DNA of 64,000 nucleotides from Caryophanales bacterium. Lineage in GTDB: Bacteria; Bacillota_I; Bacilli_A; Izemoplasmatales; UBA1188. This document shows, piece after piece, positions 376 to 22,209 of the stretch. How positions within the stretch are numbered: the stretch's first letter is position 1; every line of letters begins with the position of its first letter. Made by a program: the position numbers and the translations under genes. The notes under the pieces were generated by a model. It did no database searches. It saw nothing but the letters and a program-made list of their open reading frames with translations, and was not told the origin of the DNA. The stretch spans positions 1 to 64,000 of the forward strand of contig JAEEXP010000002.1 of the NCBI GenBank assembly GCA_016287865.1, given 5' to 3'.

Positions 376-393
376 ATTATTACCTCCTTGTTT

Positions 394-436
394 TCTCAAA
401 AAAGAAAAGCCTTACTGCATTTAAGCAATAAGGCTT
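394..436 (-). promoter_or_regulatory. Terminator-like hairpin plus T-tract in the 5' leader of the RhuM gene (putative attenuator)
   Basis: Minus strand AAGCCTTATTGC-TTAAAT-GCAGTAAGGCTT followed by TTTTCTTTTTT, then RBS GGAGG and ATG; the gene upstream is divergent, so this is not its terminator. Confidence 0.6.
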
Positions 437-492
437 GAATTTACATTAAGTTGAATTAACAGTTTTTTACTAATAGTTTTACCAACTTTCAT
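421..492 (-). CDS. Putative 23-aa leader peptide MKVGKTISKKLLIQLNVNSSLIA
   Basis: ATG..TAA on the minus strand; stop lies in the loop of the terminator-like hairpin; similar peptide precedes the second RhuM gene. Confidence 0.4.
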   Translation of the reverse strand: MKVGKTISKKLLIQLNVNSSLIA

Positions 493-660
493 AATTAAGA
501 TAATACTACAAATATTACAAAAAAACTATAAGTATTAATAAATGATTAGTGTTTTTTATGTTGGATACTATTAGATAGGATAATTAATAATTAGCTTATA
601 TTATATTTATATAGATATATATCCCATTTTTTTATACAATATAATATATAAAGGTATTAC

Positions 661-1641
661 ATGAATAAATTTGAAATAAGAGAAATAAAATATGATGAAT
701 ATGAAACTTTGCTTGATGTGATGAACACATCTTTTGGCTTTGTGGATGATGAGGTAAAGTTTGAACATATTCTTCCAAAACTATATTATAAAGATAATCC
801 TAATATGATTCATATAGGTGCGTTTGTTGAAGGAAAGCTTGTCACATCAATAGGTCTATATCTATTTAATATGATTAATAATGATAAAAGAATTAGTATT
901 GCTTGCGTGGGTGCTGTCTCAACTTTACCTGAATACAGAAATAAAGGATACTTTACTAAAGTATTAAATAGAGTGATAGAAAAAGCTAAAGAGTTAAATC
1001 TAGATCTACTCTATCTTGGAGGAGACAGAACTAGATATAACCATTTTGGTTTTGAAACCGCAGGAAGATGTATCTACTTTAATTTAAATAAGAGAAATTT
1101 AGGTCAACTCAAAGAAGAATCATATGAATTATATAAGTTAGAAGAAAGTGATACTGAAGTAATTAAAGAACTTCTAGACTTATATAATAAAGAACCTATG
1201 AGAATAGAAAGAACTATAGATAATTTCTATAAAACATTAATTAGTTGGAACTGTACTCCTTATTATGTAAAACAAGAAGGAAAGGTAGTTGGATACTTTA
1301 CATACAAAGAAGGAGAAGTTGATGAACTAATCTTTAATACATCAATAGACACAATGTTTAGAGCTATTTTAGATGTTTCTGATTATGCAATGATGACTCT
1401 TCCAATGTCTTATTACAAAGATGTTATAGATAGAGCGGATTGGTATGTTATTAGATTCGCAGATATGTTTAAAATATTAAACTTACACAATGTAATAAAT
1501 TTCTTAGGCGGAAATGCTTATCAATTAGATCATTTAAAGAATAAAGATGAATTAGAAGTAATAAGACTTGTCCTTGGTGATGCAGCTTATGATAGTGTTA
1601 TTGGAGATAATATGTTTATAAGCCGTACTAATGGCGGATGA
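661..1641 (+). CDS. GNAT family N-acetyltransferase (Eis-like two-domain)
   Basis: GAVSTLPEYRNKGYFTKVL acetyl-CoA-binding motif; 326 aa. Confidence 0.8.
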   Translation: MNKFEIREIKYDEYETLLDVMNTSFGFVDDEVKFEHILPKLYYKDNPNMIHIGAFVEGKLVTSIGLYLFNMINNDKRISIACVGAVSTLPEYRNKGYFTKVLNRVIEKAKELNLDLLYLGGDRTRYNHFGFETAGRCIYFNLNKRNLGQLKEESYELYKLEESDTEVIKELLDLYNKEPMRIERTIDNFYKTLISWNCTPYYVKQEGKVVGYFTYKEGEVDELIFNTSIDTMFRAILDVSDYAMMTLPMSYYKDVIDRADWYVIRFADMFKILNLHNVINFLGGNAYQLDHLKNKDELEVIRLVLGDAAYDSVIGDNMFISRTNGG

Positions 1642-20779: not shown

Positions 20780-21219
20780 ACTAGAGTCTTCAATTTGAAC
20801 TACCGAGGATTCCTCGGTTGTTGAGTCATCTAATTCTTCCCCCCCAAAAAAATTAGTTCTACATTTTTGCCAAATACTATTTCTTCAACATTTGCCCATT
20901 TTCTAAATTGAGTGCCGCGATTCGAATAGACCCTATATCCTATAGCAATAATCATATCGAGATTATAGCATTTTACATTGAATGTTTTTTTCATCAGAAG
21001 CAGTAGTTCGGAAATTCCGAACAACTGAATCGTCTAACTCATTTTCTGCAAAAATATGGTTAATATGTTCACTTATATTTACTTTAGATGATTCAAATAA
21101 AGAACATATTTGCTTTAGGCTTAACCATACAGTGTCTTACTCAGGTTCTATCCTCACATCTAGACAAACTTCCCATATTAAATTTGATTAAATCGTATTT
21201 CTTTTCTTCATTTTGCATG
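20780..21219 (-). pseudogene. Decayed RhuM-family gene (third copy, tandem after 21208-22071)
   Basis: Minus-strand MQNEEKKYDLIKF..., CYNLDMIIAIGYRVYSNRGTQFRKWAN, EEIVFGKNVELIF match the intact paralogue but are split by frameshifts/stops and internal deletion. Confidence 0.85.
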
Positions 21220-22071
21220 TTTATGTACTCTTTTTAATATTTCGTTTTTATTAAAGCTTTCGACTTTTATAATACTAAATCTTTTCTTGCCTATACTATT
21301 TATAGAAGTTCCAAGTATGTAAACTAAATCATCCACAATAATATATCTATCGTGAAAAATGTTAGTGTGTATTATTGTAATATTGCTTGGAACTTCTTTA
21401 TTATTTAAATAAGAAGAAGGAGAAGTAATGATAGTCGTCTTTACTTCTACGTCTTTAAGCATAGTCAACAAAAAGTCATCTGCATAATTATCGATAATTA
21501 TTAATTCTTGTTTGGCTAAGAAGAATAACTTTCTTATAAGTGTATAAGGTTCAAAAATTTCTCCCTCAAATATGATTTCTGCGTTTTTACCAAATATAAT
21601 TTCTTCTGCGTTGTTCATTCTTGATTCTAAAGCATTATATTTATTCTCTAAACTAATTAGATTAGTTGAACAAGATAAGCATCTTTCTTCGTTGATAACG
21701 TGACCTTTAAGCAAGAACTCTTTTAATATGGAGTTTGCCCATTGCCTGAATTTAACTGCAATTTTTGAGTTTATTCTATATCCAACTGATATAATCATAT
21801 CGAGATTAAAATATTTAACATTACGTTTGATAACACGATTTCCTTCAACTTGAACTTTTTCCAAAACGGAAATAGTTGAAGTATTTAGTTCACCATCATT
21901 AAGTATATTTGAAATATGCTTACTAATAGCAGGCACATTAACACCAAACAATTGTGCAATTTCATCTTGTGTTAACCATACAGTGTCATCATTTGGTTCG
22001 ACTCTTACATCTAGGCTAAACTCCCCATCTTCAAATTTGATTAAATCGTATTTCCTTTCCTCTTTTTGCAT
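21208..22071 (-). CDS. RhuM-family protein with N-terminal Bro/Rha-like DNA-binding region and C-terminal PLD/ORF6N-associated-like domain
   Basis: GGAGG RBS; DDTVWLTQDEIAQLFGVNVPAISKHISNI...YFNLDMIISVGYRINSKIAVKFRQWANSILKEFLLKG; C-term IIIDNYADDFLLTML...FHDRYIIVDDLVYILGTSINSIGKKRFSI. Confidence 0.85.
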   Translation of the reverse strand: MQKEERKYDLIKFEDGEFSLDVRVEPNDDTVWLTQDEIAQLFGVNVPAISKHISNILNDGELNTSTISVLEKVQVEGNRVIKRNVKYFNLDMIISVGYRINSKIAVKFRQWANSILKEFLLKGHVINEERCLSCSTNLISLENKYNALESRMNNAEEIIFGKNAEIIFEGEIFEPYTLIRKLFFLAKQELIIIDNYADDFLLTMLKDVEVKTTIITSPSSYLNNKEVPSNITIIHTNIFHDRYIIVDDLVYILGTSINSIGKKRFSIIKVESFNKNEILKRVHKHAK

Positions 22072-22088: not shown

Positions 22089-22178
22089 TTAGCAAAATAA
22101 AAGCCCTATCGAGTATTTCTCAATAGGGCTTGAGTTAATTAGATTTAGTTGTAGCAATTTAATCTTTTTCTTTTTCAT
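22089..22178 (-). CDS. Putative 29-aa leader peptide MKKKKIKLLQLNLINSSPIEKYSIGLLFC
   Basis: GGTGGT RBS and TATAAT upstream; reads through the hairpin and stops 17 nt before the RhuM ATG. Confidence 0.5.
   Translation of the reverse strand: MKKKKIKLLQLNLINSSPIEKYSIGLLFC
22092..22131 (-). promoter_or_regulatory. Terminator-like hairpin in RhuM leader (putative attenuator)
   Basis: Minus strand AAGCCCTATTGAG-AAATA-CTCGATAGGGCTT followed by TTATTTTGC. Confidence 0.6.
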
Positions 22179-22209
22179 AATTACCACCACTTTGATTATA
22201 ACATATTAT

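Follow-up and report, generated by a model that had tools for sequence, protein, structure and literature searches.

A candidate ribosome-gated transcription attenuator with a Shine-Dalgarno-masking helix ahead of RhuM and YhcG defence-candidate genes

Known attenuators with a leader ORF

In the pyrBI attenuator of E. coli, the leader open reading frame (ORF) reads into or through the terminator, and the coupling between ribosome and RNA polymerase sets the outcome; the system senses UTP and controls a biosynthetic operon. The leader presented here likewise carries an ORF that runs into or through a terminator, but, different from pyrBI, it features a second helix, which is predicted to hide the Shine-Dalgarno (SD) sequence of the leader. 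When a stop codon in E. coli was shifted from 28 bp to only 5 bp ahead of a terminator, termination fell from approximately 90% to less than 10%; a terminator located less than 100 bp into an ORF, in contrast, can remain active as long as the polymerase does not pause (PMC4824070, where the pyrBI attenuator is also named).

The closest precedent with proven logic is the pil1 locus of S. gallolyticus, where termination is prevented by a ribosome that completes the leader peptide at the hairpin or within it (Danne et al. 2014; PMC3894217). The order of elements given there for pil1 and pil3, i.e., promoter, RBS, leader ORF, stem-loop terminator with a T-run, and RBS of the gene, recurs in most leaders of our study with a putative promoter and a putative leader RBS; a stop codon near, in, or after the hairpin recurs as well and would lead to read-through by ribosome occlusion; in both cases, indels can alter the length of the leader. 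However, pil1 and pil3 control pili and not defence candidates, and their phase variation is driven by GCAGA repeats, whereas no GCAGA-like repeats occur in the leaders considered here. Moreover, an SD-masking helix is not described in the accessible part of that report (PMC3894217), and the likeness considered here is one of architecture.

How single-gene defence candidates are silenced and switched on is largely an open question, and in a literature search that covered few subscription papers, neither RhuM nor DUF1016 was found to be connected with attenuation. The kind of attenuator is itself known; what is new in the leader is the putative SD-masking helix and the set of genes that would be controlled. 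The leader is a compact, conserved, and cloneable element, associated with the candidate systems PDC-S05 and PDC-S02 in several families of one class. It marks RhuM and YhcG copies with a putative common control, and with it, reporter assays could directly ask if defence genes are gated by the coupling of transcription and translation.

RhuM genes of the window and their leaders

The window, i.e., the whole stretch of 64,000 nucleotides that was analysed, contains two RhuM genes preceded by the leader, both on the minus strand and named A and B hereafter. RhuM gene A (positions 1 to 375; ATG at 375-373; PF13310) had been described as truncated in an earlier note on this DNA. The gene is indeed cut, but it is the start of the contig that cuts it (window position 1 is C85:1), so that a biological truncation is not shown. 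RhuM copies are often located at contig ends (the window start, G000 C86, and G006 C8), as assembly-breaking repeats would be.

Upstream of the SD of gene A (383 to 388) lies the terminator hairpin T (407 to 436), with 12 bp and the loop TTAAAT (AAGCCTTATTGC-TTAAAT-GCAGTAAGGCTT, read from 436 to 407), directly followed by the U-run TTCTTTTTTG (397 to 406). The leader ORF, MKVGKTISKKLLIQLNVNSSLIA (421 to 492), encodes 23 aa and has its stop in the loop of the hairpin. Both the hairpin with its U-run directly before the RBS and the ORF ending in its loop had been claimed in the earlier note and are borne out by the sequence; in particular, hairpin A is the only terminator-like site between positions 200 and 700, while shuffled sequences give 0.1 such sites per 500-nt stretch. 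The strands of a second helix, P1, which the earlier note had overlooked, map to 482 to 488 (5' strand, AAGTTGG), which is the SD region in relatives and falls within the ORF in A, and to 448 to 454 (3' strand, TCAACTT), which corresponds to the codons for QL of a conserved QLN motif. The gene upstream of leader A encodes a GNAT acetyltransferase (661 to 1641, plus strand) and is divergent, and hairpin A is therefore not its terminator, as had been argued.

No SD precedes ATG492 of leader A. Leaderless initiation is plausible because a -10-like box, TATTAT (500 to 505), ends 7 nt before this ATG, an arrangement that is found also in the leaders of genus g159, where TATAAT, 6 nt, and ATG follow each other in a leaderless-looking order. 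With the support of these relatives, leader A is probably leaderless, as previously suspected.

RhuM gene B (21208 to 22071, minus strand) is complete and encodes 287 aa. Its leader, on the same strand, comprises a -10 box, TATAAT (22195 to 22200), the 5' strand of P1, AGTGGTGGTAATT (22179 to 22191), the leader ORF, MKKKKIKLLQLNLINSSPIEKYSIGLLFC (22089 to 22178), within which lies the 3' strand of P1, AATTGCTACAACT (22147 to 22159), and a 13-bp hairpin T (22101 to 22131), with the stop of the ORF past the U-run. The Pfam model Virulence_RhuM (PF13310) matched A with 69.3 bits and B with 81.2 bits (curated cut-off, 33.7), and the PADLOC HMM PDC-S05 matched residues 7 to 282 of B (E value, 2.7e-71). 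PDC-S05 is a single-gene phage-defence candidate, and a putative role in defence is suspected for RhuM B. The AlphaFold model of this protein (mean pLDDT, 74; pTM, 0.42) presents N-terminal helices with an HTH-like look, one long helix, and a C-terminal part, and in fold comparison it is best matched by TrmBL2, Zucchini, and phospholipase D; because of the low confidence of the model, the fold is taken as a mere hint at function. Just downstream of RhuM B (20830 to 21218, minus strand), we could notice a degraded second RhuM, interrupted by frameshifts and stops, which is probably what is left of a former tandem pair.

The paired changes in the hairpin arms that had been pointed out between A (CCTTA/TAAGG) and B (CCCTA/TAGGG) are real, but A and B are homologous paralogues and not, as had been assumed, two independent occurrences. 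The residues K-LL-QLN-NSS-I are present in both leader peptides, in line with the earlier note. However, to judge selection on the peptide from this similarity alone would be to overestimate it, because the 5' arm of the hairpin partly encodes NSS-I and QLN corresponds to a strand of P1.

Distribution of the leader

The source genome contains five RhuM genes, and the hairpin is present at all four with a readable 5' end, namely, A, B, C (contig 15), and D (contig 50); E starts beyond its contig. Genome G003 has orthologues of B and D that retain the hairpin, and so does a further, new locus in G005. Covariance models made from the leaders (R1 to R3) and run over whole genomes identified approximately 30 homologous leaders, which come from the same genus and, within the class, from two or more further families, with RhuM as the downstream gene in most cases. 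Where RhuM genes stand in tandem, as in G005 and G364, only the first of the pair was found to have a leader ahead of it.

At L189, L191, L209a, and L211, the leader stands ahead of DUF1016/YhcG nuclease genes, which are unrelated to RhuM. The YhcG genes that were checked match PF06250 and PF17761 (3 of 3) and, in PADLOC, PDC-S02 (2 of 2). When a YhcG unit of G309 is compared with a RhuM unit of G364, the leaders show 83% identity over 93 nt, and we regard the leader as homologous across the RhuM and YhcG families. Thus, the architecture of leader ORF and terminator recognized by the earlier note ahead of RhuM is conserved, but it is not specific to RhuM. The note had made its proposal depend on covariation and on homologues, and both are found, since other genera and families possess leader and hairpin with compensatory changes.

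Two contigs of G309, 52 and 77 (L216 and L209), carry units of approximately 1.2 kb, consisting of promoter, leader, hairpin, and YhcG, which are 91% identical and occupy two unrelated sites; the homology stops approximately 37 nt past the gene, and no terminal repeats were seen by eye at the unit ends. At L158 (G000 contig 50), the leader precedes a 101-aa ORF (L158:3846-4151; MSRSEFRWNKKRKHY...) with no match in Pfam or PADLOC.

As to the limits of the distribution, none of 70 public-genome loci of distant RhuM homologues presents a close leader arrangement, and a terminator-like hairpin occurs in 4 of the 70, always at least 84 nt upstream of the start. Phage and plasmid records contain RhuM matches; viral contigs contained neither a relative of the protein nor an exact match of the leader. 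A cmscan of the window against Rfam 15 at the gathering score returned two tRNAs only, with no match for the leader. L182 to L186, L195, L197, L199, and L201 to L206 were discarded as leaders, being weak model matches that look like ordinary terminators.

A few loci show alterations. The C orthologue of G003 (L123, contig 195) was considered as a clean empty site and rejected, as it holds a degraded RhuM, with a deletion from just past the -10 region of the leader into RhuM; the remnant reads IKNIIDDNECDISNVQKNARSIF and then stops. At L174 (G002 contig 26), the leader enters an unrelated hairpin, GGGGCTGTTAAGAAAC..., possibly the end of an insertion sequence. The second hairpin of G163 (L180:378-455, minus strand; contig 39) has no gene behind it, and a similar palindrome, GAGCTGTGAAAAAA, follows it.

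The terminator hairpin

Across 15 leaders, 96% of the alignment cells of T are paired and 7 of the 11 pairs show two-sided changes, counts that lean towards the model because the alignment was fitted to its structure; the earlier MAFFT alignments A2 and A3 leave the picture unchanged. None of 500 shuffles reached the covariation score of T. The stem energies range from -11.5 to -21.3 kcal/mol, and 5 to 8 T occur within the next 9 nt. In the RhuM and YhcG leaders alike, the SD of the gene comes directly after T, so that a transcript started upstream must pass T to express the gene. An intrinsic terminator is thus located between the leader ORF and the RBS of the gene, as in a pil1-type attenuator. 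On the other hand, the leaders were found to contain no conserved sequence upstream of T that could pair with its 5' arm, i.e., no antiterminator helix, and the absence of a conserved helix competing with this arm sets the leader apart from switches of the trp or erm type.

Furthermore, the U-run can pair with an A-run before the SD of the gene at 397 to 414 (minus strand) in A and at the equivalent place in B and D, which would give a weak third helix (TTTTCT/AGAAAA, TTTTA/TAAAA, and TTTTTC/GAAAAA, respectively) with one apparent covarying pair.

Helix P1

The motif strand of P1, UUACAACUU, is complementary to the SD region of the leader, AAGUUGUAA, with 8 to 10 contiguous pairs in many leaders. 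In B, AGUGGUGGUAAUU pairs with AAUUGCUACAACU with one mismatch, the strands being shifted or changed and the pairing kept, and in L158, UUGUACUA is still paired with UAGUACAA, although both strands differ in place or sequence; G303 is a further compensated deviant. G-U pairs occur in P1 of G163, G416, G364a, and G309a. C, G6C8, G221b, D, and the leaderless leaders form the helix weakly or not at all.

Since RNAalifold recovered T and nothing else, P1 was tested by permutation. Over 21 leaders, the duplex between the strands of the same leader has a mean energy of -7.35 kcal/mol, compared to -5.83 ± 0.31 kcal/mol for strands permuted between leaders (0 of 5,000), a result that the kinship of the leaders could inflate, although the deviants B, L158, G303, and G309d are separate leaders. 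With shuffled motifs, the energy is -4.0 kcal/mol. At the level of sequence, the two strands of P1 covary.

The leader ORF

Most leaders present a TATAAT box, often as TATGnTATAAT, together with an SD and an ATG. The spacing from this ATG to the CAACTTAAT-like motif, which encodes QLN, is 27 nt in 16 leaders; almost all of the remaining ones have a different spacing that is still divisible by 3, with the motif out of frame in G309c and G309d. D has neither a leader promoter nor an SD, it lacks P1, and what may be its leader ORF overlaps with the final part of fba.

The stop of the leader ORF lies at -3 nt or later relative to the hairpin in 30 of 30 cases (the choice of ATG being partly conditioned on this), the stops being spread over the base of the hairpin, its 5' arm, loop, and 3' arm, and the sequence past the U-run. 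Shuffled leaders remain open in 12 to 38% of cases each, and this statistic is indicative only, because an ORF extending to the hairpin was in part a criterion for picking the ATG and because the leaders share ancestry. Frame 0 alone is free of stops, and residue similarity is highest in this frame. The codon positions vary almost equally, so that the case for selection on the leader peptide itself is weak.

Possible mechanism and alternative explanations

Based on the sequence features described above and on the analogy with pil1, we think it rather probable, though well short of settled, that the leader is a cis-acting, ribosome-gated transcription attenuator of the pil1 type, equipped with an SD-masking helix and placed before defence-candidate genes. 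The promoter would yield a short transcript with a small leader ORF ending at or within T, before the RBS of the gene, and by default T would stop transcription and keep the gene off. If a ribosome reached the end of the leader with RNA polymerase still near, its footprint would cover the 5' arm of T, the terminator would not fold, and RhuM or YhcG would be transcribed. As P1 would pair the SD region of the leader with the QLN codons, the ribosome would have to engage before the 3' strand of P1 is made, and with this timing the switch would sense how ribosome loading compares with the speed of the polymerase. The sequences themselves show T and P1 with their covariation, the frame, position, and stop of the ORF, and the distribution of the leader; that T terminates transcription in the cell, that translation of the leader relieves it, that P1 acts on the timing, and that a signal is sensed is what we infer from them.

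This attenuator reading is favoured by the presence of one leader before two unrelated gene families and by the precedents of pil1 and of the shifted stop codon in E. coli. Against it, the leaders are short, and E. coli terminators placed less than 100 bp into an ORF escaped repression except where the polymerase paused. Moreover, D is devoid of SD and P1, the leaderless leaders have no P1 and C, G6C8, and G221b only a weak one, and the out-of-frame motif of G309c and G309d, the nearly equal variation of the codon positions, the conditioned ATG picks, and the relatedness of the leaders all weigh on the same side.

A different kind of sensor would be given by a ribosome stalling at xLxxQLN, 8 to 12 nt before T, in response to a drug, an amino acid, or a phage factor, with the stall deciding whether T forms. 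Such an arrest peptide or codon sensor would account for the conservation of QLN even in leaderless leaders, where P1 is missing, and for the nearly constant distance from QLN to T, and it would recall the msrD, yxjB/tlrB, and mef/mel leaders of low-GC bacteria, which likewise combine a leader peptide with a premature terminator, although the genes downstream of our leaders are not resistance genes. However, our leaders lack a conserved antiterminator helix that could respond to the stall; the motif doubles as the 3' strand of P1, and its distance to the stop varies widely. We deem a stall-based sensor unlikely.

Slightly less likely again is a constitutive damper, in which T would keep a toxic gene low by means of a fixed read-through, the leader ORF being incidental or a by-product. 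The position of a Rho-independent terminator directly before a candidate defence gene is shared with type III toxin-antitoxin loci such as ToxIN (PMC5086642), and D keeps T though it has no clear leader ORF. Different from those loci, RhuM and YhcG are not ToxN-like in Pfam searches, and no tandem-repeat antitoxin RNA was found upstream of the terminator. Moreover, a damper leaves unexplained the fixed ATG-to-motif spacing with an SD in many leaders and the covariation of P1.

The strands of P1 are also an inverted repeat in DNA, AAGTTGTAA...TTACAACTT, which could serve as an operator for a regulator such as RhuM itself, given the predicted HTH-like helices at the N terminus of RhuM B, with T acting only as a damper. 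The G-U pairs in the helix, the variable spacing and position of the arms, and the occurrence of the same element at YhcG genes make this very improbable. Even less credit is given to a functional small protein encoded by the leader ORF, e.g., an antitoxin peptide against the downstream nuclease: a basic N terminus and QLN recur among the peptides, and frame 0 is the only open one, but the C termini differ in length and frame among close relatives, and two unrelated downstream proteins share the leader.

The least credible explanation, that the hairpin is the terminator of the upstream gene, could draw on the co-oriented upstream genes of B and D and on the terminator-like hairpins found at most 75 nt upstream of 4 out of the 48 ORFs in the window that reach 120 aa or more, but is refuted for A and C by their divergent upstream genes. 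As for D, a role of the hairpin as the fba terminator was rejected, as the fba terminators of relatives are unrelated in sequence and hairpin D belongs to the RhuM leader family.

Leader length and possible phase variation

It is possible to hypothesize an extension of the attenuator reading, which we advance as a tentative and rather doubtful proposal, whereby the leader would be a swappable RNA switch common to unrelated defence candidates, on when the polymerase slows relative to the ribosomes, with poly(A) slippage adding phase variation. Infection may be a cause of such slowing. In G340, two paralogous copies have A7 and A8, respectively, ahead of the hairpin, a comparison between paralogues and not within one switching locus; one leader stops at the hairpin base, and the other passes the hairpin and enters RhuM in frame. 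Similarly, A6, A7, and A8 occur in G221a, G5C4, and G163, with three end points of the leader ORF.
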